A stretch of 64,000 bases of DNA from Elusimicrobia bacterium RIFOXYA2_FULL_47_53 (lineage in GTDB: Bacteria > Elusimicrobiota > Endomicrobiia > Endomicrobiales > XYA2-FULL-47-53). The stretch lies in contig MGVE01000020.1 of assembly GCA_001800315.1 (NCBI GenBank), positions 156,641 through 220,640 on the forward strand. The letters run 5' to 3'. Below the pieces are notes generated by a model that saw nothing but the letters and a program-made list of their open reading frames with translations, had not been told where the DNA came from and did no database searches. The translations under genes were made by a program, and so were the position numbers. Every line of letters starts with the position of its first letter. Position 1 is the first letter of the stretch. Shown piece by piece: positions 1 through 45,802 of the stretch.

Positions 1-13
1 TTTGAACCTCAAA

Positions 14-32
14 TGGACACTTTTTGGACACT
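14..32 (+). repeat. 19-bp direct repeat, copy 1 (integrase-tail sequence)
   Basis: TGGACACTTTTTGGACACT occurs exactly here and again at 21921-21939 and 23396-23414. In the other two copies it is read in frame as part of an integrase C-terminus (CNKVDTFWT). Here it lies about 80 bp before a truncated tRNA-Ser, so it is probably the 3' end of another integrase whose gene lies left of the window. The CNKVD part is not preserved in this copy. Confidence 0.6.
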
Positions 33-113
33 AATAATCAGGCATTAATCTTTCAGTGTTGTGCTAAATTTAGGAAGCTACCTGATTAGGCTATATCTAT
101 ATAGTTGATGATG

Positions 114-174
114 CTGGTCTCGAAAACCGGGGTACCCCTTTCGGGTACCGTGGGTTCAAATCCCACCCTCTCCG
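114..174 (+). pseudogene. 3' half of tRNA-Ser (CGA anticodon), integration scar
   Basis: The sequence holds an anticodon stem-loop with loop CTCGAAA (anticodon CGA, Ser), a long class II variable arm (GGTACCC/GGGTACC stem), a perfect T arm (GTGGG/CCCAC) and an acceptor 3' strand CCTCTCC plus discriminator G. The 5' acceptor strand (GGAGAGG would be needed) and the D arm are absent upstream. This is what remains when a tyrosine recombinase inserts an element on the 5' side of a tRNA. The element should lie left of the window. No CCA is encoded. Confidence 0.8.
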
Positions 175-271
175 TTGATTTTTCATATTTTACCCGACAT
201 TCCAGCATTTGTGGCAGATTTGTGATACATACAATTCATTTAATTTGAAAATATTTGTGTAAGGAAAAATT

Positions 272-1462
272 ATGCTATTGTCAAAAAGAGCTCTAGGTAT
301 CTTACCTTCCGCGACTCTCGCTATCGATGCGAAAGCAAAAGCGTTAAAAGCTCAAGGAATTGATGTGATAAGTTTCGGTACTGGAGAACCTGATTTTGAC
401 ACGCCTGAAAATATAAAAGAAGCTGCAAAAAAGGCGATTGATGAAGGCTTTACAAAGTATTGCCCAGTAGGTGGAACTCCTGACCTAAAAGACGCGATTA
501 TCGCTAAATTTAAAAATGATAATAACCTTGAATACACAGCTGACCAGATAATAGTTTCGTGCGGTGCCAAGCATTCACTATATAACCTCTTTCAGGCAGT
601 CCTTAATCCTGGTGACCAGATAATCATCCCTGCGCCTTATTGGGTATCATATCCCGATATGGCAAAGCTTGCCGGCGCGAAAGCCAAGATCGTGAAAACG
701 AATGAATATTCAGGTTTTAAAATGACGGTCGAACAGCTCAAGAAAGCCGTTGGCAAGAAAACAAAAGCAGTGATAATCAATTCTCCATCAAACCCAACTG
801 GTGCGGCTTATACGCCTGAAGAGCTTAAAAAACTTGCTCAAGTGTGTCTTGAAAACAATCTTCTTATAATTGCGGACGATATTTATGAAAAGCTTGTCTA
901 TGGAGGTTTTAAGTTTTCGTCTATCGCAACCGTTTCACCCGAAGTCAAAGCCATAACTGCAGTCGTTAATGGTGTTTCTAAATCATACTCGATGACAGGA
1001 TGGCGAATAGGTTACACTGCTGGCCCGAAAGAAATAATAACAGCTATGACTAATATTCAGAGTCAGTCCACTTCTAACCCTACATCAATAGCTCTTAGGG
1101 CTTCGGCTGAAGCCCTTAAGGGACCGCAGGAAAGCGTTGAGATGATGAGAAAGGAATTTGAGGCTCGCAGAAATTACATTTACAGCAGACTTAATTCGAT
1201 ACGAGGGGTCAAGTGCTTCAATCCGGAAGGTGCTTTCTACGTTTTTCCTAACATAAAAAAACTCCTCGGTAAATCCTACTCTGGCAAAACTATTATGACC
1301 GCTACCGAATTTGCCGAATATCTGCTTGAGAAAGCCCGTATAGCAGTTGTTCCTGGAGACCCTTTCGGTGCACCTGGTTACATAAGGCTTTCTTACGCGA
1401 CTTCCATGAGCAATATTAAAAACGGATTGGATAGATTTGAATTAGCTATAAGCGATAAATAG
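272..1462 (+). CDS. aspC: class I aspartate/aromatic-type aminotransferase (PLP-dependent)
   Basis: The 396-aa product has the normal length of the subgroup I-gamma aminotransferases, which exchange amino groups between aspartate (or a related amino acid) and 2-oxoglutarate in the cytosol. The substrate pocket motif NSPSNPTG lies near residue 170, and the PLP lysine is K237 in SVSKSYSMTGWRIGY. GTGEPDFDTP near the N-terminus is the family signature. The ATG is preceded by AAGGA at a good distance. The gene stands alone between the tRNA-Ser scar and the restriction operon and looks like a resident chromosomal gene. Aspartate versus prephenate or aromatic preference cannot be told from sequence alone. 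Confidence 0.85.
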   Translation: MLLSKRALGILPSATLAIDAKAKALKAQGIDVISFGTGEPDFDTPENIKEAAKKAIDEGFTKYCPVGGTPDLKDAIIAKFKNDNNLEYTADQIIVSCGAKHSLYNLFQAVLNPGDQIIIPAPYWVSYPDMAKLAGAKAKIVKTNEYSGFKMTVEQLKKAVGKKTKAVIINSPSNPTGAAYTPEELKKLAQVCLENNLLIIADDIYEKLVYGGFKFSSIATVSPEVKAITAVVNGVSKSYSMTGWRIGYTAGPKEIITAMTNIQSQSTSNPTSIALRASAEALKGPQESVEMMRKEFEARRNYIYSRLNSIRGVKCFNPEGAFYVFPNIKKLLGKSYSGKTIMTATEFAEYLLEKARIAVVPGDPFGAPGYIRLSYATSMSNIKNGLDRFELAISDK

Positions 1463-1591
1463 GAGTTGATTAACGACTGAAAGTCCTATTATCTATCCTT
1501 GTCTTTTGCTTGAAATATCTACGAAAAAGAGTTACAATCAGCATGTTATGGCACTAGATACAATTTGGGGGATAAATCCTATTTAAATTAT

Positions 1592-1636
1592 AAACCACAT
1601 TGTTCTAAATAAACGATGTGGTTTTGTTATTTATTG
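1592..1636 (+). terminator. possible intrinsic terminator between aminotransferase and hsdR
   Basis: AAACCACAT and ATGTGGTTT form a 9-bp stem (1592-1600 / 1616-1624) around a 15-nt loop, followed by TTGTTATTTATT. The loop is long and the stem A+T-rich, so termination may be weak. It is placed correctly to separate the aminotransferase from the restriction operon. Confidence 0.45.
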
Positions 1637-1657
1637 ATAGTAGGACTGGAATAATCT

Positions 1658-4057
1658 ATGACAAATAAAAAAGAACTATCAGAAAGAGACATCTGCACTA
1701 AGTTCATTCTGCCCGCTCTTGTAAAAGCCGGATGGGATGTTGAAAAACAAATCAGAGAGGAAGTTTCCTTCACTGCCGGCCGAATATTCGTTAAAGGCAA
1801 TAAGACAGTAAGGGGAGAAGGCAAACGGGCTGATTTTATCCTTTATCTTAAGCCGAATATTCCAATAGCAATAATTGAGGCAAAAGATAACAATTATCCG
1901 ATAGGCGCTGGTTTACAGCAGGCGCTTAACTACGCAAAGATTTTGGATATACCAATAGCATTCAGTTCAAATGGCGATGGTTTTGTGCAGCACGATTGCT
2001 CGGGATATTTCTCTGCGCCGGAAAAGCAGTTATCTATCAATGAATTTCCTTCCCCTGATGAACTCTGGAAAGTATATAAAAAGTACAAGGGCATAGAAAC
2101 CCCTAAACAAGAAAATATAGCTTTATATGATTACCATTTTGACGGTTCCGGCAGAGCCCCTAGATATTATCAGCAAATAGCGATAAATCGCACTGTCGAA
2201 GCTATTGCAAAAGGTCAAAATAGAATCCTTCTTGTTATGGCAACAGGAACGGGTAAAACCTATACCGCATTTCAGATTATATACCGGCTTTGGAAAAGCG
2301 GAACAAAGAAAAGAATCCTATTTTTAGCCGACCGCAATGTCCTTATTGATCAGACCAAACGAAACGATTTTAAGCATTTTAAAGATAAAATGACAGTCAT
2401 TAGAAAGAAAATAATAGATAAAGCTTTTGAAATCTATTTAGCTCTGTATCAAGGGTTAACCAATTATGATGAAGATAAAGATGCCTATAGACAGTTTAAA
2501 CCGGACTTTTTTGATTTGGTAATAGTAGATGAGTGTCACCGCGGAAGCGCGGCAGAGGACAGCGCATGGCGCGAAATACTTCAATATTTCCATTCCGCAA
2601 CACAAATCGGCCTTACAGCAACCCCTCGCGAAACCAAAGAAATCTCAAACATCGAATATTTTAAGGAACCAATCTATACCTATACGCTTAAGCAGGGCAT
2701 TGAAGACGGGTTCCTGGCCCCCTATAAGGTAATCCGCGTAGGCTTCAATGTGGATTTGGAAGGGTACAGGCCCGAGGCAGGCAAAAGGGATGCAGAAGGC
2801 AATGAGGTTCCGGATAGAGTATACAACACAAAAGATTTTGACAAAAACCTTGTCATAGATGAACGTACAAAAATGGTAGCCAAAAAAGTTACTGAATATT
2901 TAAAGAAAACAAACCGGTTCGATAAAACCATAATATTTTGTATAGATGTAGAACATGCCAGCAGAATGCGGCAGGCAATTATTAACGAAAACGCAGATTT
3001 GGTAAGAGAAAATAGTAAATATGTTATGCGAATAACCGGTGACGATATAGAAGGTAAAAGAGAATTGGATAATTTTATTAATCCTGAAGAAAAGTACCCT
3101 GTCATTGCCACTACTTCCAAACTAATGTCCACCGGGGTTGACGCTCAAACCTGTAAACTTATTGTGCTTGATTCAAACATAAACTCTATGACAGAGTTTA
3201 AGCAGATTATCGGTCGCGGCACGCGCATAAGAGAAGATTTCAATAAAACGTTTTTTACTATAATGGATTTTCGCAATGTAACCGACCAGTTTGCCAACCC
3301 TTCTTTTGACGGATACCCCGTAATGATTAAAAGAATTATGGCAGAACAACCTATTACGGATGAGATCATTAACAATGAAGATGTTTCAATAGATCCTGAA
3401 ACAGGTAAAGCAATAAATTTTGACCAAAAAGAAAGCGTCAACTATCCAATCAAACCTGAAATTATCCAGGGCGGGCTTGTTATGGCTGAGCCGCAGAGCA
3501 AAGTATATATAGCCGGTGTTGATGTTTCCGTGCTTAACGAGCGAGTGCAGCACTTAGACTCTCACGGAAAGCTTATTATTGAAAGCTTAAAAGATTTCAC
3601 CAAAGCAGGTATCATTAAAGAGTTCCGTTCCCTTAATGATTTCCTGACACGCTGGAACAGTACAACCAAAAAGAAAGCCATTATTGACGAATTGGAAGCG
3701 CATGGAGTTATTCTAGAGAACCTCAAAGAAGAAGTAGAAAAAGATTTGGATGTATTTGACCTTGTTTGCCATGTTGCCTGGGATATGCCCGCGCTTACGC
3801 GGCATGAAAGGGCTGAAAATGTTAAAAAGCGCAACTATTTCACAAAGTACGGCGAAAAGGCGCGCATAGTAATAGATGCCCTGTTAGATAAATATGCAGA
3901 TGAGGGAATAGAAAATATAGAGGATTTGTCAGTATTAAAGATAGACCCCTTTAACAATATCGGCACCCCTACGGAAATAGTCAATATCTTTGGCGGCAGA
4001 GATGCTTATATGAATGTTATCAAGGAACTTGAAAATCAACTTTACAGGACGGCATAA
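1658..4057 (+). CDS. hsdR: type I restriction endonuclease subunit R (HsdR)
   Basis: This 799-aa subunit is the motor and nuclease of a type I restriction system. The N-terminal third carries the HSDR_N nuclease fold (ADFILY near 60, then IAIIEAKDNNYPIGAGLQQA, the PD-(D/E)xK-type ExK at about 73-77). The superfamily 2 helicase core follows, with Walker A ATGTGKTYT near residue 197, DECHR near 291 and the helicase C-terminal motif QIIGRGTRIRED near 520. A C-terminal EcoEI-type R_C region binds the methylase. The stop TAA at 4055-4057 is directly followed by the hsdM ATG at 4058. All key motifs are present, so it looks functional. Confidence 0.93.
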   Translation: MTNKKELSERDICTKFILPALVKAGWDVEKQIREEVSFTAGRIFVKGNKTVRGEGKRADFILYLKPNIPIAIIEAKDNNYPIGAGLQQALNYAKILDIPIAFSSNGDGFVQHDCSGYFSAPEKQLSINEFPSPDELWKVYKKYKGIETPKQENIALYDYHFDGSGRAPRYYQQIAINRTVEAIAKGQNRILLVMATGTGKTYTAFQIIYRLWKSGTKKRILFLADRNVLIDQTKRNDFKHFKDKMTVIRKKIIDKAFEIYLALYQGLTNYDEDKDAYRQFKPDFFDLVIVDECHRGSAAEDSAWREILQYFHSATQIGLTATPRETKEISNIEYFKEPIYTYTLKQGIEDGFLAPYKVIRVGFNVDLEGYRPEAGKRDAEGNEVPDRVYNTKDFDKNLVIDERTKMVAKKVTEYLKKTNRFDKTIIFCIDVEHASRMRQAIINENADLVRENSKYVMRITGDDIEGKRELDNFINPEEKYPVIATTSKLMSTGVDAQTCKLIVLDSNINSMTEFKQIIGRGTRIREDFNKTFFTIMDFRNVTDQFANPSFDGYPVMIKRIMAEQPITDEIINNEDVSIDPETGKAINFDQKESVNYPIKPEIIQGGLVMAEPQSKVYIAGVDVSVLNERVQHLDSHGKLIIESLKDFTKAGIIKEFRSLNDFLTRWNSTTKKKAIIDELEAHGVILENLKEEVEKDLDVFDLVCHVAWDMPALTRHERAENVKKRNYFTKYGEKARIVIDALLDKYADEGIENIEDLSVLKIDPFNNIGTPTEIVNIFGGRDAYMNVIKELENQLYRTA

Positions 4058-5491
4058 ATGAAGAACATCGGGAATATTATTAAGAAGCTGCAAAACATCA
4101 TGTGGAAAGATCAAGGCGTATCCGGAGACGCTCAGCGCATTGAACAACTTGGCTGGATGATAAGTCTTAAAATACTTGATGACAAAGATAAAGAGCTTGA
4201 GCTTCTGAATGACAAATATGTTTCACCCATGCCCAAAAAACTACAATGGCGAAACTGGGCAGCTGATGATGAGGGCATGACAGGTGAAGAACTTAAAGAG
4301 TTTGTTGACACTAAGCTTATTCCACAACTTAAGAACCTTGATATAAGCTCAGGAAATAAGAGGGCTCTTATTATTCGTGAAATATTTGACGGTACAAATA
4401 ACTACATGAAGAACGGCACAATTATCAGGCAAGTTATTAACGAGCTAAATCAAATAGATTTCAATAATTCGGAAGACCGCCATATTTTTGGCGATATATA
4501 CGAAACAATCCTTCTCGACCTTCAAAACGCGGGGAAATATGGTGAATTTTATACGCCCCGCGCCATTACGGAGTTAATTACTGAAATGGTCAATCCCCGT
4601 TTGGGCGAAAAGGTTCTGGATCCTGCTTGTGGGACAGGAGGCTTTTTAACCAGTGCTATTGAGAATATTCGCAAACAGGATATAAAGGGTGTTAATGACC
4701 TCAAAATTCTTGAAAAGACCATTCACGGCATGGAATTTAAGCCTTTGCCGTTTATGCTCTGTGTTACAAACCTAATTTTGCACGATATTGAAGTCCCGAA
4801 TATAGATTATACAGACAGCTTAAACAGGGAATATACTTCAATAGGACAAAAAGATAAAGTAGATGTAATCCTTGCTAATCCTCCTTTCGGCGCGTCTGTT
4901 GCAGATGGTGTCGAAACGAACTTCCCGCAGAACTACCGCACTACTGAAAGCGCTGATTTGTTCTTACTGCTTATGGTTCGGTATTTAACTGATAGAGGCC
5001 GGGCAGGTATAGTATTGCCGGATGGTTCATTGACAGGGGATGGAGTCAAGCAGCGTATCCGTCAACATTTATTGGAGAATTGCAACCTGCATACAATAGT
5101 AAGACTGCCGAGCTCAGTTTTTCAACCTTACGCAAGTGTGGCCACAAACCTGCTTTTCTTTGATAAAGGAAAGTCTACTAAAGAAACCTGGTACTGGGAA
5201 CACAAACTGCCCGAAGGCGTAAAAGCCTACAACAAAACCAGGCCAATCCAGAAAAACGAATTTGAAGGTCTCGAAAAATGGTGGAAAAAACGCAAAGAAA
5301 ACGAGCAGGCATGGAAAGTGTCAATAGAAACCATTGTTTCCAACGGCTATAACCTCGATATAAAAAACCCTCATATTGCAGAAGCAGAACATTCCTATTC
5401 AAGTAAAGAGCTTGTAGATATGTTGCACGACTCTTTTCGTAAGAGTGATATACTTCTTGAAAAACTAAAGAAGGAACTAGGTAATGGCTAA
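4058..5491 (+). CDS. hsdM: type I DNA methyltransferase subunit M (HsdM)
   Basis: This is a 477-aa N6-adenine methyltransferase. The N-terminal HsdM helical bundle (residues 1-140) precedes the N6_Mtase domain. DPACGTGGFL near residue 188 is the SAM-binding motif I, and NPPFG near 274 is the catalytic NPPF motif IV. It starts immediately after hsdR with no intergenic space and overlaps hsdS by 8 bp, implying translational coupling of all three subunits. M2S1 forms the modification enzyme and adding R gives the restriction complex. Length and motifs are those of an intact enzyme. Confidence 0.95.
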   Translation: MKNIGNIIKKLQNIMWKDQGVSGDAQRIEQLGWMISLKILDDKDKELELLNDKYVSPMPKKLQWRNWAADDEGMTGEELKEFVDTKLIPQLKNLDISSGNKRALIIREIFDGTNNYMKNGTIIRQVINELNQIDFNNSEDRHIFGDIYETILLDLQNAGKYGEFYTPRAITELITEMVNPRLGEKVLDPACGTGGFLTSAIENIRKQDIKGVNDLKILEKTIHGMEFKPLPFMLCVTNLILHDIEVPNIDYTDSLNREYTSIGQKDKVDVILANPPFGASVADGVETNFPQNYRTTESADLFLLLMVRYLTDRGRAGIVLPDGSLTGDGVKQRIRQHLLENCNLHTIVRLPSSVFQPYASVATNLLFFDKGKSTKETWYWEHKLPEGVKAYNKTRPIQKNEFEGLEKWWKKRKENEQAWKVSIETIVSNGYNLDIKNPHIAEAEHSYSSKELVDMLHDSFRKSDILLEKLKKELGNG

Positions 5492-6830
5492 GCGGCAAAA
5501 AACAAATATCGGGCAGTTTCTAAAAGAACGGGAAGGAAGGTACGATCCCGCGGATTCTGCCGTGCTAAACCTGCAAAGGCTGAATAAAATTGACTTTTCC
5601 GGTGAGATACATCTTTCCGATAAAGGCTCAAAAACAGACATGATTATTGTTGAGCCCGGGGACTTTGTTATTTCAGGAATCAATGTTTCAAAAGGCGCCC
5701 TGTCTGTTTATCATGGTAAGGAGCCGATTACTGCCACAATTCATTACTCGTCCTACATTTTAGATAAGAAAAAGATTGACATTGAATATTTCAAACGCTT
5801 CGTCACAAGCCAGTCTTTCGTCCAGGCATTAAAAGACCAGGTAAAAGGCGGTATAAAAACAGAAATCAAACCGAAACATTTTCTTGCACTCGAGATTGAC
5901 CTGCCGGATATTGATGTTCAAAAAGATGTCGTTTCATTTTTCGGCAAAATAGAAAATGAAATGAGCGAATTAACTGGTGAAATCTCTAATCAACAATCTT
6001 ATTTGAAACAATTGCGCCAGCAGGTTTTGCAGGAAGCCATTGAAGGGAAACTGACAGCCATGTGGCGTAAGGAACATCCAGAACTTATCAGCGGTGAAAA
6101 TCACGCTTCAAAACTACTTGAAAATATCAAAGCTGAAAAAGAAGTACTTATTAAAGAAAGTAAAATTAGCAAAGAAAAACATACTTCAATAATCAATGAC
6201 ACTAAAAAACCATTTGATTTGCCTAATGGCTGGGAATGGTGTAGGTTGGGCGAGATAATATATGATTTACCTAGGAATGGATATTCACCTAAAGCAGTAA
6301 CATATGAAACAAAAACAAAAAGCTTAAAGCTGGGAGCTACAACATATGGTTTTTTTGATCCAACAAAGTATAAATATGTAGCTGATATTATTCCAAATGA
6401 TTCAGTGTTTTGGTTAGAGCCAGAGGATATATTAATCCAAAGAAGCAATTCACTGGATTATGTCGGTGTAAGTGCGATTTATACCGGAAAAACAAAAGAG
6501 TATATTTATCCTGATTTAATGATGAAAATAAGGGTTGTGCGATGTGTATCAGTGAAATTAGTATCTCTATTTCTTTCTTCACCACAGATACGGAACTATT
6601 TTAAATCTAAAGCAAAGGGGTCTCAACAAACGATGCCCAAAATAAATCAGGGTGTTGTTATTAATGCCTTGATTCCTTTGCCTTCTAAAACTGAACAACA
6701 AGCTATTGTTGAGCGAGTTGATAAACTTATGGCCATGATAGACGAGCTAGAAAAGCAAGTCGCCGAACGCAAATCTCAATCCGAAATGCTTATGCAATCG
6801 GTTTTAAGAGAAGCATTTGTGGCTACATGA
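5484..6830 (+). CDS. hsdS: type I specificity subunit S (HsdS)
   Basis: This 448-aa subunit chooses the bipartite target sequence of the system. Two target-recognition domains are visible: residues about 1-160, ending at the helix KDVVSFFGKIENEMSEL, and about 245-410, ending at TEQQAIVERVDKLMAMIDELEKQ. Each is followed by a long coiled-coil conserved region. The repeated pattern LRQQVLQEAIEGKL and LMQSVLREAF marks the two ends of the half-repeats. The second recognition domain (about 6180-6620) is visibly A+T-richer than the first, which fits domain exchange by recombination. The target sequence cannot be predicted here. Confidence 0.9.
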   Translation: MAKRQKTNIGQFLKEREGRYDPADSAVLNLQRLNKIDFSGEIHLSDKGSKTDMIIVEPGDFVISGINVSKGALSVYHGKEPITATIHYSSYILDKKKIDIEYFKRFVTSQSFVQALKDQVKGGIKTEIKPKHFLALEIDLPDIDVQKDVVSFFGKIENEMSELTGEISNQQSYLKQLRQQVLQEAIEGKLTAMWRKEHPELISGENHASKLLENIKAEKEVLIKESKISKEKHTSIINDTKKPFDLPNGWEWCRLGEIIYDLPRNGYSPKAVTYETKTKSLKLGATTYGFFDPTKYKYVADIIPNDSVFWLEPEDILIQRSNSLDYVGVSAIYTGKTKEYIYPDLMMKIRVVRCVSVKLVSLFLSSPQIRNYFKSKAKGSQQTMPKINQGVVINALIPLPSKTEQQAIVERVDKLMAMIDELEKQVAERKSQSEMLMQSVLREAFVAT

Positions 6831-6914
6831 GGCAGCATAAATAGTAAAGATGAATATTTGCTTTGCAATGTGGAAAATCATGAAAAGATAATAAATATAA
6901 CTATACAAAATTCA

Positions 6915-7022
6915 GGGGGCACACACTTTAATTATTGAGAAACGAAAAACGGTGTGACCTGAACTTTTTCTTTCATAGGTGATACCGTAACCGCTGAAAC
7001 TATAATTAAAGTGTGTGCCTCC
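6915..7022. repeat. 108-bp palindromic element (MITE/REP-like)
   Basis: An exact 18-bp inverted repeat (GGCACACACTTTAATTAT, 6918-6935, against 7002-7019) extends outward to 21 bp with one mismatch. Inside it a second imperfect palindrome (ACGGTGTGACCT / AGGTGATACCGT) surrounds a T-rich centre. The whole segment could fold into one long hairpin. No coding capacity is seen. It lies directly upstream of a RadC gene that lacks its normal N-terminus, so the element may mark the breakpoint. Confidence 0.65.
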
Positions 7023-7041
7023 AGATTTCTCCGAAAGATTA

Positions 7042-7425
7042 ATGATTAAATTCCCATTAGATGTATTACCCTTAATCCAACACTGCGGCGACCGTAAGCA
7101 GGAACATTTCTTAAGCATCTCCATTAATGGCGCCAATGAAGTCATGAATATCCGAGTAGTAATCATCGGCTTAATCAATAAGAGTCAGGTTCACCCCAGA
7201 GAAGTATTCGCCGATATAATAGCAGGACGAGCCTCCGCAATAATAATTGCCCACAATCATCCCAACGGCGACCTAAAGCCAAGCACCGAATATATAACTG
7301 TAACCCAAAGAATAAAAGAATTCGCCGCCATATTGGGCATAACCCTTTTAGACCACATAATATTCAACAACAAAGGCTACTATTCCTTCGTTGAGAACAA
7401 TAATTGGAGCAGTGATTTGAGATGA
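7042..7425 (+). CDS. RadC-type JAB/MPN domain protein, N-terminally truncated
   Basis: The product is 127 aa from the ATG at 7042; a GTG at 7015 lies inside the palindromic element and is less likely. It is only the C-terminal MPN/JAB domain of RadC: the metal motif HNHPNGDLKPS near residue 73, then a short tail GITLLDHIIFNN. Chromosomal RadC is about 220 aa with a helix-hairpin-helix region first, which is missing here. Stand-alone RadC domains are common on mobile islands next to restriction genes. Their role is uncertain. The stop overlaps the next start by 4 bp (ATGA), so it is coupled to the DUF3800 gene. Confidence 0.75.
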   Translation: MIKFPLDVLPLIQHCGDRKQEHFLSISINGANEVMNIRVVIIGLINKSQVHPREVFADIIAGRASAIIIAHNHPNGDLKPSTEYITVTQRIKEFAAILGITLLDHIIFNNKGYYSFVENNNWSSDLR

Positions 7426-8630
7426 GCAGAGAGTTTGCATTCATTGATGAATACGGAGACCCCAACACTAACACTCAGGTGCAGGGTACAAGCACGCACT
7501 TTATAATTGCTGCTGTTTTAATAAATGAAAATGAGCGCCCAGAGCTTGAGGCACAGCTGGAAGCATTACGGATAAAGCATTTTCAAACAGGAGAGATAAA
7601 ATCGAGTGCAGTTGGATCAAATGATAATCGCCGTCTACGCATACTAACTGACCTAGCTCAACTTAAATATAAATACTATGCCTTTGTTATAGATAAACGA
7701 GCGATATTAAAGGATAGCGGCCTTATTTTTAAACAGCCATTCTTAAAGTTCTTGCATGGTATGGTCTACGGTAAGCTTTATCGTGCTTTCCCAAAACTTA
7801 AAGTTGTAGCAGACGAACATGGCACAAGAAATTTTATGGATGGATTTCATAATTATATAGAAAAAAATCATATTCCGGATTTATTTACCAGTGCTGAATT
7901 TGTATTCTCTACACAAAAGTCCGATCCTGTGCTAGGAATATCCGATTTTTTGGCCGGATCACTTGCTCGTATTTTCGATCCCAAAAAAGCATCTACCATG
8001 GGTGAAAAGTTTCTCAGCGTTTTAGGGAATGGGCGAATGCTAATTGATGAATGGCCTCCTGCATTAAAAACATATTGCTCACACGGACATGAGAAGCAGG
8101 ATAATCCTTACGATCAACTCGTTGATGAACAGTCTATGTATCGAGCGCTCGAATTTTTGGATCGTAATATTAGCTCTAATGAAGAAGATGTATTATTGCA
8201 GATAGAAACACTGAAATATTTAATCTACTATAAAAACTTCGTTAAGCCTAAAGCCTATATTTCTAATGACAGTATCAGGGCTGTTCTTAAAGAAATGACA
8301 AATATAGATGTTAATCCGCAATATTTTAGATCAAGCATAATTGCAAAGCTGCGAGATCAAAATGTGTTGATAGCTAGTAGCAGTAAGGGGTATAAACTAC
8401 CGGTTAATGTATCGGATTTGCGAGATTTTGTAGAGCATACGCACATGGTAATTGGTCCTATGGTATCAAGATTGAAAAGAGCCAGGGAACAAGTTCTTTT
8501 ATCTACTAAAAATAAGTTGGACCTACTCAATGACCAAAGTTATGCCTATCTCAAAGTATTACTTGAGTTACGTAAAGATGAGTTGATAGCCGAAGAAGAT
8601 AGGCCGGCAGACAATCAACTTATGTCATGA
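7422..8630 (+). CDS. DUF3800 domain protein (RNase H-like fold)
   Basis: The 402-aa protein has an N-terminal DUF3800 domain (residues 1-190). The acidic positions expected of its RNase H-like fold are visible: FIDEYGD at 7-13, GEIKSS near 57, VVADEHG near 127 and LGISDFLAG near 171. The C-terminal half (about 240-400) is helical with a winged-helix-like stretch and is unassigned. DUF3800 proteins occur widely in defence islands and on phages; their biochemical activity is not established. It overlaps RadC by 4 bp and follows hsdRMS, so it belongs to the same accessory cluster. Confidence 0.75.
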   Translation: MSREFAFIDEYGDPNTNTQVQGTSTHFIIAAVLINENERPELEAQLEALRIKHFQTGEIKSSAVGSNDNRRLRILTDLAQLKYKYYAFVIDKRAILKDSGLIFKQPFLKFLHGMVYGKLYRAFPKLKVVADEHGTRNFMDGFHNYIEKNHIPDLFTSAEFVFSTQKSDPVLGISDFLAGSLARIFDPKKASTMGEKFLSVLGNGRMLIDEWPPALKTYCSHGHEKQDNPYDQLVDEQSMYRALEFLDRNISSNEEDVLLQIETLKYLIYYKNFVKPKAYISNDSIRAVLKEMTNIDVNPQYFRSSIIAKLRDQNVLIASSSKGYKLPVNVSDLRDFVEHTHMVIGPMVSRLKRAREQVLLSTKNKLDLLNDQSYAYLKVLLELRKDELIAEEDRPADNQLMS

Positions 8631-8652
8631 TGTTTTTTAGGGGCATTAAATA

Positions 8653-9537
8653 ATGAAAAACAAAATTATCTCCACCGCAGACACTTTGGGGGCTATTCAA
8701 GTAGAGGACATCATTAAATCAGCGGTGGACTTATGTGCAAAATGTAGTAATACTAAGAAAAGCTCTGTGAAAATAGATTTAAGCAGCGTTAAGTTCATAG
8801 ATCCGTACGGGCTAGTTTCATTATGCTTGCTTGGGAAATACTTGAAACGTAGTTACAAGAAGGTTAATCTTGTGCTTAGCGATGATAATACTTTGCAAAC
8901 TTATATGAATGTTATGAATTTTCCTATATTGGCTGGCAAATATATGTCCTTCGCCGGTGCTAAATTTATTGAAAGCAATGTTATCCATAAATCAAATTCA
9001 AATGTTCTGCTTGAAATAACAAAAGTTCATTCAAAGGCAAAAGATGTAGATGAATGTATAAGGTCTTGTATTAGTAAAATATCTGATATACTCGCTACAG
9101 AATTAAAATTAAAGAAACAGGAAAACTCTGATATATGTTCCATCATCTCTGAGCTATGTAATAATATTAGAGATCATTCCGAAAACGAAGGGTTTATCGC
9201 AGTTCAGAAATATCATAAATCTAATGGAATAAACTTTGTTGTTATCGGTGTTGTGGATCTTGGGATCGGGATAAAGAATAGTCTTGGCAAGAGATACGAT
9301 GTTTCGAATTGGTCACATTTTGATGCAATCCTTAAATCATTAAAAAAGGGTTTTTCCAGTTTAGGAGATAGAGGGATGGGATTACATATTGTTAAAACCC
9401 TAATCGAAAAATATTCTGGGCAATTGAACATTAGATCTGGGGATACTAGAATTTATCTAAGTGGCGAATATAAAACGAGTTTTCTTGGTAGCTTTTTTCC
9501 AGGCACTCAAATTTCTATAAGACTATATGAAAAATAA
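8653..9537 (+). CDS. STAS domain plus GHKL ATPase (anti-sigma-type regulator)
   Basis: This 294-aa fusion has two domains. Residues 1-100 form a STAS-like fold (SVKIDLSSVKFIDPYGLVSL). Residues 120-294 form a GHKL ATPase with N box SELCNNIRDHSENEG near 171, G1 box VDLGIGI near 201 and G2 box GDRGMGLHIVK near 238. STAS and GHKL domains are normally separate partners (antagonist and anti-sigma kinase), so their fusion suggests a self-contained switch that binds or phosphorylates a partner. No membrane segment or receiver is seen. The next gene, carrying a STAS-like and winged-helix protein, is the obvious partner, but it has its own promoter. SD-like TAGGGG precedes the ATG. Confidence 0.7.
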   Translation: MKNKIISTADTLGAIQVEDIIKSAVDLCAKCSNTKKSSVKIDLSSVKFIDPYGLVSLCLLGKYLKRSYKKVNLVLSDDNTLQTYMNVMNFPILAGKYMSFAGAKFIESNVIHKSNSNVLLEITKVHSKAKDVDECIRSCISKISDILATELKLKKQENSDICSIISELCNNIRDHSENEGFIAVQKYHKSNGINFVVIGVVDLGIGIKNSLGKRYDVSNWSHFDAILKSLKKGFSSLGDRGMGLHIVKTLIEKYSGQLNIRSGDTRIYLSGEYKTSFLGSFFPGTQISIRLYEK

Positions 9538-9550
9538 TTATAAGCGAGCA

Positions 9551-9579
9551 TTGACAAATAAAAATATATATACTACAAT
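9551..9579 (+). promoter_or_regulatory. near-consensus sigma-70 promoter with palindrome over the -10
   Basis: TTGACA (9551-9556), a 17-bp spacer and TACAAT (9574-9579). The -10 box is flanked by TATAC and GTATA, an inverted repeat centred on TACAAT. This is a natural place for an autoregulatory repressor such as the winged-helix protein encoded just downstream. Confidence 0.8.
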
Positions 9580-9602
9580 GTATACAGTGAAATGAGTATA
9601 AT

Positions 9603-10163
9603 ATGCTAACTAGAATAAATAAATACATTATTGAAGAAAAAATACTTAACGGTAGAGATCAAGGTAAAACCGTTCGGGAAAAAATATTAACTTTTCTTGA
9701 AAAAGAGCCTATTGATATAATATTGCCTATCAGCTATGAGAAGGTCGATTTTATGGATTACTCTTTTACAGATGAAATGTTATGCAAGCTCATTCGAAGA
9801 ATAATGAGTGGTGAATTAGGGGAACGATATGTTGTGGTAGAATCTTTGAATGAATCCTTAAAAGAGAACATTGATGTTGCCTTAAGAGAAAGAGAGCTAT
9901 GTTGTGTATATGCTACAGGCGAAAGTAAAAACGAGATTCTCGGAAAATTAAGTACTCCTTTAAGAGAGACTTATGAATACGCTATAGAACAAAAGAAAAT
10001 TACTACTAGAGACATATTCGGGGTTAAGAAGTTTAAGCTAGAAAATATAAGTGCTGCCAGTAATCGCCTTACGCGATTAGAAAAATTAGGGTTACTACAT
10101 AACAACAAGGATGAAGTTGTTGGAGGAGGTGGCAGGCAGTTCGTATTTGAAGCAATAAGGTAG
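9603..10163 (+). CDS. STAS-like (DUF4325-type) protein with C-terminal winged helix
   Basis: The product is 186 aa. Residues about 25-90 (ILPISYEKVDFMDYSF) resemble the STAS-like DUF4325 fold. Residues 120-186 (AASNRLTRLEKLGLL followed by a glycine-rich wing GGGGRQFVF) look like a MarR-type winged helix. I infer a DNA-binding regulator whose activity is set by interaction with the STAS/GHKL protein upstream. The near-consensus promoter with a palindrome over its -10 suggests autoregulation. The pair sits inside the accessory region and no standard pathway name fits it. Confidence 0.6.
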   Translation: MLTRINKYIIEEKILNGRDQGKTVREKILTFLEKEPIDIILPISYEKVDFMDYSFTDEMLCKLIRRIMSGELGERYVVVESLNESLKENIDVALRERELCCVYATGESKNEILGKLSTPLRETYEYAIEQKKITTRDIFGVKKFKLENISAASNRLTRLEKLGLLHNNKDEVVGGGGRQFVFEAIR

Positions 10164-10218
10164 GTTTTTTTGAGTTCTATTACACCGTGTTCAGTGTAGT
10201 GCTCAATAGGAGGCATAT

Positions 10219-10452
10219 ATGGTAAGGAAAACACATCATGTTGTTCCAAATCCGGAAGGCGGCTGGGATGTAAAGAAAGGAGGGTCAGGCAGGGCTTCTG
10301 GGCACTATGAGCATAAGACAGAAGCCTTGAAAGAAGGCAGAGTTATCAGCCAGAACCAGCACACAGAATTCGTAATTCATGACAAGCATGGCAGGATAAC
10401 GGATTCAGACAGCCATGGTAATGACCCTTGTCCCCCCAAGGACAAAAATTAA
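10219..10452 (+). CDS. DUF2188-family small basic protein
   Basis: This is a 77-aa soluble protein. The pattern HHVVPNPEGGWDVKKGGS...ALKEGRVISQNQHTEFVIHDKHGRI is the DUF2188 signature (a small beta-alpha-beta unit, function unknown, often beside mobile or stress genes). AGGAGG precedes the ATG at optimal distance. A small palindrome, TACAC-N8-GTGTA (10180-10197), lies just upstream and may be regulatory. The next three genes each have a strong Shine-Dalgarno sequence and follow closely, so this appears to open a four-gene cassette. Confidence 0.7.
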   Translation: MVRKTHHVVPNPEGGWDVKKGGSGRASGHYEHKTEALKEGRVISQNQHTEFVIHDKHGRITDSDSHGNDPCPPKDKN

Positions 10453-10468
10453 TAAAGGAGGAAAAGCA

Positions 10469-10795
10469 ATGCTCGGATTCAAAATTGAAGGTTTTGACAA
10501 GCTGCAAAAACAGCTCAGGAACCTGCAGAAGAATGCAGGCGAGCTAAACGGAACACATGAGATAACGCTCTCTGAATTATTCCCCAACCACTTCATAAGC
10601 AAATTCACGAAGTTCAGTTCTCTCGATGATATGTTCAATGCGAGCGGTTTTAAGGTAGAATCTGCAGAGGATTTTAAGAAAATCCCAGATGATGAATGGG
10701 ATAAATTCATACAGGCAAACACAAGTTTCGCAAACTGGAAAGAGATGCAGCATAAAGCTGCCGGTGAGTGGTCCGCTAAAAGGCTGGGCTTATAA
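10469..10795 (+). CDS. conserved small protein of unknown function
   Basis: The product is 108 aa from the ATG at 10469, chosen because AAAGGAGG lies 8 bp upstream; an in-frame ATG at 10415 has no such site and overlaps the previous gene. It begins with a short basic helix (FDKLQKQLRNLQKNAGEL) followed by HEITLSELFPNHFI and FSSLDDMFNASGF. I recognise this layout from conserved hypothetical proteins of accessory regions but know no function. It is soluble with no cysteines or catalytic motif. It lies between the DUF2188 and MBL-fold genes. Confidence 0.7.
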   Translation: MLGFKIEGFDKLQKQLRNLQKNAGELNGTHEITLSELFPNHFISKFTKFSSLDDMFNASGFKVESAEDFKKIPDDEWDKFIQANTSFANWKEMQHKAAGEWSAKRLGL

Positions 10796-10837
10796 AAATG
10801 CATAGCAATATGCAATAACTATTAAGGAGACAGAATC

Positions 10838-11695
10838 ATGGTTTGTACATTCATCTTTTGGGATGTTAAGCACGGTAGTGCGGCGTACATACAAACGCCG
10901 ACAGGAAAGAAAATAGCATTAGATCTTGGAACGGGTTCTTATGGCGGCTCGAATGATGAATTCAGCCCGTTGCTTTATCTTAAAAATGAGTACAAAATTA
11001 CATTAGATGCCGTAATAATCACACACCCTCACAGTGACCATCTTTACGACATCAAGAACTTCGATGCATTATCTCCTAAGGTGCTATCAAGGCCGAAGCA
11101 TCTTACCGAGCAAGAGATAAGAGATGGAAATAGAAGCGATGACAAGGAAATAATAGACAAGTATTGGGATATACATATGCGCTATAATGACCCGGTAAGC
11201 GACCTTGTAAATCCCCTGCTACCCACTAACAACGGAGGAGTAGAGATTAAGCATTTCGTGCCGTCGTCTTGCGCTACATCCAACCTTAATAACCATAGCA
11301 TGGTTACTATAATATCTTGTGCCAGTTCAAAAATTCTCATACCTGGAGACAATGAGCCTGCTTCTTGGGATGAATTGCTTAAACAGGACAGTTTTAAATC
11401 AGCAATAAAAGATACAGATATATTAGTGGCTCCTCATCACGGTAGGGATTCCGGATTCTCAGCAAGTTTATTCGAACATATAAACCCCTATCTCACTATA
11501 ATATCTGATGGTCGGTTTTGTGATACAAGTGCCACTGGCAGATATAGTAATAAAACAAGGGGATGGAAGGTAAATAAACGAAACGGAGAAAAAGAAGAAA
11601 GAAAATGTGTTACTACCCGCAATGATGGAGCTATTCTGGTTAAGTTCGGCAGGAACCAGGATAATACTCCGTTCATGTCAGTGAACATCGATTAA
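10838..11695 (+). CDS. metallo-beta-lactamase-fold hydrolase (ComEC-like MBL domain, stand-alone)
   Basis: This 285-aa cytosolic protein has all MBL-fold metal motifs: DVKHGSA at 9-15, THPHSDH near 65, IPGDNE near 168, and APHHGRDSG near 199, with a terminal NDGAILVKFG strand. The set resembles the hydrolase domain of ComEC/Rec2, but the membrane channel is absent. The substrate could be a nucleic acid or cyclic nucleotide; this is inference. GGAG precedes the ATG. The following gene for a membrane protein starts 16 bp after the stop, suggesting a functional pair. Confidence 0.8.
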   Translation: MVCTFIFWDVKHGSAAYIQTPTGKKIALDLGTGSYGGSNDEFSPLLYLKNEYKITLDAVIITHPHSDHLYDIKNFDALSPKVLSRPKHLTEQEIRDGNRSDDKEIIDKYWDIHMRYNDPVSDLVNPLLPTNNGGVEIKHFVPSSCATSNLNNHSMVTIISCASSKILIPGDNEPASWDELLKQDSFKSAIKDTDILVAPHHGRDSGFSASLFEHINPYLTIISDGRFCDTSATGRYSNKTRGWKVNKRNGEKEERKCVTTRNDGAILVKFGRNQDNTPFMSVNID

Positions 11696-43261: not shown

Positions 43262-44548
43262 ATGAACTATCTCCAGCAAAATTTTATTTATCTTTCGCAG
43301 ATCATAGGCCTGCCGGTCGTCGTCTCCGGCGACGGCGCCAGAGTCGGCTATGTCTCAGACCTGGTGGCCGGCCTGAGGGAGATGTATCCGAAGATAACCG
43401 CGGTCAAAATAAGAAAAAAAATGAGCGCGGAACATTTTTATGTGCTCTGGAAAGATGTCGTCAAAGTTGCCGAAAACAAAGCTTTGGTTATAACTTCCAT
43501 GCCCGAAGCAAATGTCGCGCTTGGCGAGAACGAGATTTGCCTGAGAGAAACATTCTGGGATAAGCAGATAGTTGATATTTCCGGATCAAAGGTGGTGCGC
43601 GTAAACGACCTGCATCTTTTGCGCGAGGATCCAAACTTCTGGGTTGTCCACATGGATATAGGTTTTAAGGGGTTGGTGCGCCGGCTGGGCTGGGCGCCCT
43701 TCGTTGAATATATTTCAAAATGGCTTTTCGCCTATGAGCTCAAAGAAAGATTTATTTCCTGGAAATATGTCCAGCCCGTAACCATGGCGCGCGCCGGCGA
43801 GTCCTTGTCGCTGAAAGTCCCGCACTCTAAAATGGCCGAGCTTCATCCGGCAGAACTCGCGGATATTCTTATTGATATCGGTACCGACGAAAGAATCGCG
43901 ATATTAAAGGCGCTCGGCAATACTATGGCGGCCAGCGCTCTCAAGGAACTGCCCTTGAAACTCAGGATCCAGACAGCGGAACTGCTCAAACATGACCAGC
44001 TGGCAAGCATAATAAATGAAATGCCCCCCGATGAAGCCGTGGACATACTTAATAAACTGCCGAGAAAAAAAGTCAGCTATATTCTAAACGCTCTTCAGCC
44101 CGACAAAGTTGCCCAGCTCAAAAATCTTCTAAGTTACTCTGAAAAGGTCGCCGGAAGCCTTATGAACACGGAATATGTTTCCGTGAGGTCATCGGTGACC
44201 GTAAACCAGGTCTGGGAAAAGATCAGGGCCGAACTCAAGAAGAAAGAATCTATTTATTATGTGTATGTTTTAGACGATAATGACACGCTTATCGGAGTAT
44301 TGACTTTAAGGCAGCTTCTGACAGCCCAGCACGACAAAATGGTTTCCGAGGTGATGCGCAAGAGGGTCGCCAAGGTCAGGGTTGACGATGATGTTAAGGA
44401 TGTGGCGCAGCATTTTCTTAAATATGATTTTACCGTGCTGCCGGTTGTGGACAAACACAACAAAATTCAGGGCACAATTACCATTAAGGACGCGTTTGAG
44501 TCGGTTTATCCGAGAATAAGAGAAGAAGCCGAGCAGGAACTGGCGTAA
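43262..44548 (+). CDS. soluble MgtE-N / CBS protein with PRC-barrel-like start
   Basis: The product is 428 aa. Residues 1-180 resemble two PRC-barrel units (GYVSDLVA, VDISGSKVVRVNDL). Residues about 195-295 are the MgtE intracellular N domain (LHPAELADILIDI, MPPDEAVDIL, LLSYSEKVAGSLMN) and 300-420 a CBS pair (VTVNQVWEKIRAELKKKESIYYVYVLDD and TVLPVVDKHNKIQGTITIKDA). The MgtE membrane domain is absent, so it cannot transport alone. It starts 12 bp after a terminator and its stop is 3 bp before the transporter ATG. I infer a magnesium-sensing regulatory subunit of that transporter. Confidence 0.88.
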   Translation: MNYLQQNFIYLSQIIGLPVVVSGDGARVGYVSDLVAGLREMYPKITAVKIRKKMSAEHFYVLWKDVVKVAENKALVITSMPEANVALGENEICLRETFWDKQIVDISGSKVVRVNDLHLLREDPNFWVVHMDIGFKGLVRRLGWAPFVEYISKWLFAYELKERFISWKYVQPVTMARAGESLSLKVPHSKMAELHPAELADILIDIGTDERIAILKALGNTMAASALKELPLKLRIQTAELLKHDQLASIINEMPPDEAVDILNKLPRKKVSYILNALQPDKVAQLKNLLSYSEKVAGSLMNTEYVSVRSSVTVNQVWEKIRAELKKKESIYYVYVLDDNDTLIGVLTLRQLLTAQHDKMVSEVMRKRVAKVRVDDDVKDVAQHFLKYDFTVLPVVDKHNKIQGTITIKDAFESVYPRIREEAEQELA

Positions 44549-44551
44549 ATC

Positions 44552-45802
44552 ATGAATATAATAAAAAAAATAAAAGAAAATTCTTTCGTAAGGAATATTA
44601 TAATTTTCCTTTCAGTGATGGGGCCCGGCGTTATAACCGCGAATGTGGACAACGACGCCGGCGGCATAACGACCTATTCTCTGGCGGGGGCGAATTACGG
44701 TTATACGCTCCTGTGGAGCCTTGTTCCCATAACTTTCGCCCTGATAATTATTCAGGAGATGTGCAACAGGATGGGCGTTGTAACCGGCAAAGGGCTTTCG
44801 GACCTGATAAGGGAAAAATTCGGCGTTAAGATGACATTCTATATCATGCTGCTGATATTGGTTACGAATTTCGGCAACATAATGTCGGAATTTGCCGGTG
44901 TTGCCGCCAGCGCGGAATTGTTCGGTATAAGCAAGTTTATCGCTATACCGATGAGCGCTTTTATAGTTTGGTACATGGTCGTAAAAGGCACCTACAGAAG
45001 CGTTGAAAAAATATTTCTCGTGGCCTGCGTGTTTTATGTCAGCTATCTTATCACCGGCTTTCTGGTTAATCCGCCCTGGCACCAGATCTACCGCGAATTC
45101 GTCAGGCCCAGTATAAGCTTTGAAACCGGTTATCTTATGATGCTGGTGGCGGTAATCGGCACCACCATAGCTCCGTGGATGCAGTTTTACCAGCAGTCGT
45201 CGGTGGCGGAAAAGGGAATAAAAATAGAGGATTATAAATACTCCCGCATGGATGTTATCGTGGGCAGTATAGGCGTTAATGTCGTGGCCTTTTTCATTAT
45301 AGTGGTTTGCGGCACGGTGCTTTTTCAGGGCAGCGGATTTACTCCGATACAGACGGCCGGAGACGCCGCCCGGGTTCTAAAGCCGCTTGCCGGAGACTAC
45401 AGTTCCTATCTTTTCGCGTTCGGCCTTCTCAATGCCTCGCTTTTCGCGGCCTCAATACTCCCTCTTTCCACGGCTTACAGTGTTTCTGAAAGCTTCGGGT
45501 GGGAGACGGGCGTCAACAAAAATTTCGCCGAGGCGCCTCAGTTTTACATACTTTACTCTCTTCTGATTGTGCTGGGCGCGAGCGTGGTGCTTTTTCCGAT
45601 TCCGCTTATAAAGATCATGTGGCTTACGCAGTTCATTAACGGCCTTGTTCTGCCGTTCGTGCTGGCCGCGATGTTAATTATTATCAATGATAAAAAGATT
45701 ATGGGCGAATACTCCAACACAAGGCTTTTCAACTACCTGACCATCGCCTGCATAGGCGGCATTTCTCTCCTTTCGTTCCTGCTCGTCATTGGCTCTATAT
45801 AA
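44552..45802 (+). CDS. NRAMP-superfamily transporter, probably magnesium-type (NRMT-like)
   Basis: This 416-aa membrane protein has about 11 helices. Helix 1 carries VDNDAGGITTYSLAGANYGY where manganese/iron NRAMPs have the DPGN motif. Helix 6 has IGTTIAPWMQFYQQ where they have MPHN. Loss of the DPGN and MPH signatures, notably the metal-selective methionine, is characteristic of the NRAMP-related magnesium transporters. Co-transcription with the MgtE-N/CBS protein 3 bp upstream supports Mg2+ as substrate. Family membership is clear, while the metal is inferred. Confidence 0.85.
   Translation: MNIIKKIKENSFVRNIIIFLSVMGPGVITANVDNDAGGITTYSLAGANYGYTLLWSLVPITFALIIIQEMCNRMGVVTGKGLSDLIREKFGVKMTFYIMLLILVTNFGNIMSEFAGVAASAELFGISKFIAIPMSAFIVWYMVVKGTYRSVEKIFLVACVFYVSYLITGFLVNPPWHQIYREFVRPSISFETGYLMMLVAVIGTTIAPWMQFYQQSSVAEKGIKIEDYKYSRMDVIVGSIGVNVVAFFIIVVCGTVLFQGSGFTPIQTAGDAARVLKPLAGDYSSYLFAFGLLNASLFAASILPLSTAYSVSESFGWETGVNKNFAEAPQFYILYSLLIVLGASVVLFPIPLIKIMWLTQFINGLVLPFVLAAMLIIINDKKIMGEYSNTRLFNYLTIACIGGISLLSFLLVIGSI

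Follow-up and report, generated by a model that had tools for sequence, protein, structure and literature searches.

A detached MgtE-type sensor gene beside an NRMT-type carrier gene: a candidate two-gene Mg2+ uptake system in an Elusimicrobia bacterium

Introduction

The closest described relatives of the locus analysed here are the NrmT carriers, named by Shin et al. in 2014, most of which are neighboured by a gene for an MgtE cytoplasmic domain that was proposed to act in feedback regulation (PMC4072509). For the C. acetobutylicum NrmTs, Mg2+ transport was seen in the absence of the partner. With the A. capsulatum NrmT, Mn2+ uptake was restored and Mg2+ uptake only weakly so; co-expression of its MgtE-like partner gave no better rescue, and a chaperone role for the partner was also raised (PMC4072509). 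Carriers of this type, also written NRMT, bear the signature DxxG in TM1 and TxxA/T in TM6 instead of DxxN and A/CxxM (PMC8806188). In Thermus MgtE, the Mg2+ sites comprise D91/D247 (Mg4), D226/D250 (Mg5), D95 (Mg6), and E59 (Mg7) (PMC5882242).

Both the pairing and the idea of feedback date from that 2014 paper and are not discoveries of the present work. Within the literature covered, searches returned no later study testing them, none treating MgtE together with a PRC-barrel, and none since 2015 addressing NrmT, MgtE, and riboswitches jointly. What is new here is the near-obligatory co-occurrence even of unlinked genes, the PRC part of the partner, the residue-level analysis of its Mg2+ sites, and the apparent replacement of CorA and MgtE in this lineage.

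Results

Organization of the gene pair

The window, the whole 64,000-nucleotide stretch analysed, carries the two genes in tandem:

43262..44548, + strand: gene A, soluble accessory protein of 428 aa (PRC + PRC-like + MgtE_N + CBS pair)
44549..44551, + strand: intergenic gap of 3 nt (ATC)
44552..45802, + strand: gene B, NRMT-type NRAMP carrier of 416 aa
43218..43243, + strand: intrinsic-terminator-like hairpin plus T-run, ending 18 nt before the gene A start

The TAA stop of gene A (44546-44548) is followed by ATC and then by the gene B ATG at 44552, the two genes sharing one reading frame. This layout agrees with the original prediction, which had placed a CBS-domain gene 3 bp from an NRAMP-type gene. 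At four related loci (L106, L118, L122, and L128), long open reading frames resemble natural fusions of the two genes; at L106 and L128 their frame differs from that of the partner, and no case was accepted as a fusion.

The hairpin lies so close to gene A that little promoter room is left, and it could act as the terminator of the TPR gene group upstream or as an attenuator in the leader. An attenuator was considered and set aside, the leader fold being no stabler than shuffled sequences (z -0.48) and no similar hairpin being evident in the leaders of relatives. Upstream of the window pair, no riboswitch reached gathering score, and relaxing the threshold to E 5 added nothing but a chance match to isrK. 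An M-box Mg2+ riboswitch lies directly upstream of the gene A homologue in two Firmicutes pairs (carriers 53-54% identical); of the 26 related loci that were scanned, 24 had none.

The carrier belongs to the NRMT branch

Gene B matches the Pfam Nramp family (E 1.4e-101), and its closest solved relative is the Mg2+ carrier EleNRMT (E 1e-106, 43% identity), as against E 1e-19 for MntH structures. Its model adopts the NRAMP/SLC11 fold with a TM-score over the target of 0.88. Two motifs (definitions from PMC8806188) delineate the substrate site:

44648..44665, + strand: TM1 motif DNDAGG, aa 33-38 (DxxG)
45158..45178, + strand: TM6 motif GTTIAPW, aa 203-209 (TxxA; W replaces the MPH histidine)

Specifically, D35-A-G-G38 and T204-T-I-A207 reproduce the NRMT signature, and the DPGN and MPH motifs of MntH-type carriers are missing, as had been noted at the outset. 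Moreover, gene B groups with EleNRMT apart from the MntH types in a FastTree phylogeny rooted on DraNramp, read for its topology alone.

Two further positions of the carrier, D33 (44648-44650) and E69 (44756-44758), are 99-100% conserved in the paired clade, against G and M in EleNRMT; D33 precedes the substrate-site Asp by two residues. Separately, locus L044 (positions 1384-2598) encodes an NRAMP protein with DVDAAS in TM1 and GAVIMPF in TM6, of neither MntH nor NRMT type and about 27% identical to gene B.

Domain architecture of the accessory protein

Gene A is organized into four successive segments:

43280..43498, + strand: PRC-barrel domain 1, aa 7-79 (Pfam PF05239, E 1.5e-6)
43541..43777, + strand: second PRC-like beta domain, aa 94-172 (assigned by its location, the beta-rich model, and the residue pattern; no separate Pfam match)
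43841..44143, + strand: MgtE_N domain, aa 194-294 (Pfam PF03448, E 3.8e-24)
44168..44500, + strand: CBS domain pair, about aa 303-413 (Pfam PF00571, two stretches, E 8e-21; MgtE cytosolic structures)

Residues 188-416 align with the cytosolic part of Thermus MgtE (E 4e-34), and the AF2 model of the protein (pLDDT 88.7, pTM 0.59) matches MgtE cytosolic structures with a TM-score over the target of 0.80-0.88. Pfam searches detected no membrane domain in gene A and, in particular, no MgtE transmembrane domain (PF01769), so that the protein is not an MgtE channel; the suggested regulatory half of MgtE without its pore is thereby upheld. The PRC-barrel-like domains expected at the front are likewise present, one by Pfam and the second, a conserved stretch, by fold pattern only.

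PRC domain 1 is present in 41 of 44 relatives. Mean information content peaks in the second PRC-like domain (2.53 bits), compared with 1.79 in PRC domain 1, 2.38 in MgtE_N, and 2.2-2.4 in the CBS stretches, and D100, D116, D132, R140, and R141 of this domain are invariant across 44 accessory proteins. The conservation of this D/R set exceeds that of most Mg2+-site residues.

Metal- and nucleotide-site residues

Alignment to Thermus MgtE, with a reference built from the aligned segment and extended at its ends, places three Asp codons at described Mg2+ sites (PMC5882242):

44030..44032, + strand: D257 codon, equivalent to MgtE D91 (Mg4 site)
44042..44044, + strand: D261 codon, equivalent to MgtE D95 (Mg6 site)
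44489..44491, + strand: D410 codon, equivalent to MgtE D247 (Mg4 site)

Gene A therefore carries the MgtE_N and CBS module together with Mg2+-site acids. The Mg6 position is Asp in 74 of 75 homologues, and D261 stands in the top group for conservation among the 428 positions of gene A, followed by D257 at rank 40 and D410 at rank 50. Both members of the Mg4 pair are Asp in 53/75 homologues and elsewhere mostly change jointly, notably to Ser/Asn in a Syntrophaceae branch; because this joint change is largely confined to one clade, it is consistent with a contact between the two positions and is not strong proof of one. The Mg5 positions are occupied by D389 and E413 (MgtE D226/D250) and are weakly conserved across the family, and the Mg7 residue is lost, S225 standing at the E59 position. 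As for the nucleotide site, three of the six ATP contacts of MgtE are kept (Y333, R350, and F390), with D188 altered to Q and N203 to R.

Co-occurrence across genomes

An NRMT alignment was scanned against 84,980 species genomes, and the best 80 of 562 confirmed loci were examined; the scan patterns were built from the carrier and so favour this NRMT branch, saying little about distant NRMTs. Among the 75 of these best 80 loci with an assessable neighbourhood, the accessory gene adjoins the carrier in 70, a count that includes some partners cut by contig ends and, at L084, a fragment of 119 aa with the CBS match, at a distance of 2.8 kb. The partner mostly lies directly upstream, many pairs overlapping by 4 nt or sitting a few nt apart, and at a few loci it is downstream or on the other strand. 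In the remaining five, a full-length accessory gene lies elsewhere in the same genome, in one case beside a second NRMT. By record title, the paired loci come from Elusimicrobia, Omnitrophota, Deltaproteobacteria/Syntrophaceae, Acidobacteria, Nitrospirae, Zixibacteria, Firmicutes, Armatimonadetes, Anaerolineales, and methanogenic archaea. Across 150 Elusimicrobiota genomes, the partner accompanies all eight Mg-type NRAMPs and none of the five motif-checked MntH-type proteins (8/8 versus 0/5); among 30 fetched loci, each of the eight PRC-bearing MgtE_N proteins sits beside an NRMT. The partner is thus near-obligatory for the surveyed carriers across many phyla, even where the genes have separated.

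Two loci merit separate mention. At L110, the NRMT (positions 4974-6236) and the accessory gene (6297-7613) form a convergent pair, one on each strand, and an MntH-type NRAMP lies about 4 kb off in the same locus. The record of L114 (positions 1-11152) is titled, probably wrongly, as a Bifidobacterium breve MAG; its NRMT pair clusters with sequences from Acidobacteria.

Other metal transporters of the host

The source genome (stated completeness 100, 20 contigs) yielded no CorA, no MgtA, and no MgtE pore: the sole sub-threshold match to PF01769 is a CDF-type efflux reading frame by inspection, two P-type ATPases score best as Ca2+ type, and a third looks copper-type by inspection. With these three importer families missing, the gene A/B pair is the best candidate for the primary Mg2+ importer. 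Two CNNM proteins are also encoded and might be alternative Mg2+ movers. No ZnuA/MntC-type binding protein was found in this genome, for which reason the carrier could serve Mn2+, and no NRAMP other than gene B was found there. Within the Elusimicrobiota, six of the eight NRMT-bearing genomes lack both CorA and MgtE, compared with 12/142 of the others (Fisher p 3e-5, shared ancestry ignored), a distribution that points to the pair as a substitute for both in several members of the phylum.

Discussion

Proposed mechanism and alternatives

Co-occurrence, the conservation of residues at the Mg2+ sites, and genome context lend good support both to the assignment of the pair as an NRMT carrier with a detached MgtE sensor and to the functional coupling of the two genes. 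The pair probably, if by no means surely, forms a two-gene Mg2+ uptake system consisting of the carrier and a cytosolic regulatory subunit. Gene B would then be an NRMT carrier, related to SLC11/NRAMP, importing hydrated Mg2+ and probably Mn2+ too. In the replete cell, the MgtE_N-CBS module of gene A would bind Mg2+ at the N/CBS interface through Mg4- and Mg6-type sites, and the Mg2+-bound protein would change shape, act on the cytosolic face of the carrier, and slow uptake, by analogy with MgtE, in which the same module closes the channel. The PRC domains would probably dock gene A on the carrier or the membrane. We infer regulation in trans because gene A keeps the Mg2+ switch, has no pore, and adjoins the carrier, so that it most simply acts on that carrier. 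An AF2 model of both genes as a single read-through chain, with the stop read as Gly as a modelling device, reached pTM 0.74 and pLDDT 90.7, values biased by the artificial link; on a rough estimate this pTM may exceed that expected for two unrelated halves, and given the link and the lack of interface scores the model counts as weak evidence.

A broader formulation is advanced more tentatively: an MgtE sensor may act in trans on an unrelated LeuT-fold carrier via conserved PRC-type docking, as a detachable feedback subunit that would provide the main control of Mg2+ entry in lineages without CorA or MgtE. If so, a channel-gating module has been reused as the detachable feedback subunit of a secondary carrier.

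Gene B could instead be mainly a Mn2+ (or Fe2+) importer, its MgtE-like partner sensing Mn2+ or a nucleotide rather than Mg2+, which is considered rather unlikely. The A. capsulatum NrmT, the one assayed accessory-linked relative outside the M-box group, has an adjacent MgtE-like gene and behaved as a Mn2+ transporter (PMC4072509), and the source genome has neither a ZnuA/MntC protein nor another NRAMP. Acidobacteria relatives also carry the same substrate-site motif, which consequently cannot separate Mg2+ from Mn2+ carriers. Such a carrier would nonetheless leave the host with no recognisable Mg2+ importer, and it fits poorly with the M-box control of two related pairs, the tracking of NRMT presence with CorA/MgtE absence, and the retained Mg4 and Mg6 Asp residues of gene A. 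The balance on the metal favours Mg2+ for gene B, drawn from its kinship with the Mg2+ carrier EleNRMT, the missing importers, the anticorrelation with CorA/MgtE, and the M-box on relatives; against a Mg2+ system stand the A. capsulatum result (PMC4072509), the lack of an M-box upstream of the window pair, the lost Mg7 residue, and the weakly conserved Mg5.

The role of the partner is a separate matter. Against a regulatory subunit count the Mg2+ transport by the C. acetobutylicum NrmTs alone and the unimproved rescue when the A. capsulatum partner was co-expressed (PMC4072509), although a rescue assay of that kind would miss a negative regulator. The partner could be a metal chaperone, a factor for assembly or stability, or a sensor of nucleotides (energy) working through its CBS pair, rather than a feedback regulator of transport. 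This is judged improbable to much the same degree as a Mn2+ or Fe2+ carrier: the chaperone option was raised by Shin et al. (PMC4072509), conservation peaks in the second PRC-like domain and not in the CBS pair, and half of the ATP contacts survive beside the altered D188 and N203, while the Mg4 and Mg6 residues rank fairly high in conservation, which is what a metal-gated switch would lead one to expect. Mere chance adjacency, with no functional link between genes A and B, is scarcely credible, having in its favour only that the single co-expression experiment showed no phenotype (PMC4072509). The pairing in 70 of 75 assessable loci (best 80 of 562) over many phyla and archaea, with order reversed or strand flipped in a few, and the genome-level co-occurrence in all five unlinked cases do not bear out the chance pairing that had been named as a possible refutation. 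A feedback subunit for a Mg2+ carrier thus remains the preferred reading; it bears on how NRMT carriers avoid Mg2+ overload and on what their MgtE-like neighbour does, for which the survey singles out D257, D261, D410, and the PRC-like domain of gene A.

Comparison with known systems

Gene B shares with the NrmT/NRMT clade of SLC11 (C. acetobutylicum Ca_c0685 and Ca_c3329; E. lenta EleNRMT) the NRAMP fold, the DxxG-TxxA site, and the absence of the MPH histidine (PMC4072509, PMC8806188), and it has a neighbouring gene for an MgtE cytoplasmic domain, as do most members. It differs in that the window pair lacks an M-box and Mg2+ is a predicted substrate, and at 43% identity to EleNRMT its clade has D33 and E69 in place of G and M. 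MntH-type NRAMPs (DraNramp and EcoDMT) have the fold in common (TM-score over the target about 0.84), whereas gene B lacks their DPGN/MPH motifs and is about 24% identical to DraNramp. The A. capsulatum pair Acp2976/Acp2977 has the same gene order, the MgtE-like gene coming immediately before that for NrmT, and was assayed as a Mn2+ transporter (PMC4072509); Acidobacteriaceae homologues, standing in for its sequence, fall on another branch with a changed ATP-contact pattern. Finally, gene A shares with the Thermus thermophilus MgtE channel the MgtE_N and CBS module and the Asp residues of the Mg4 and Mg6 sites, but lacks the plug helix running into the pore, PF01769, and the Mg7 residue, and carries two extra PRC-type domains at its front.
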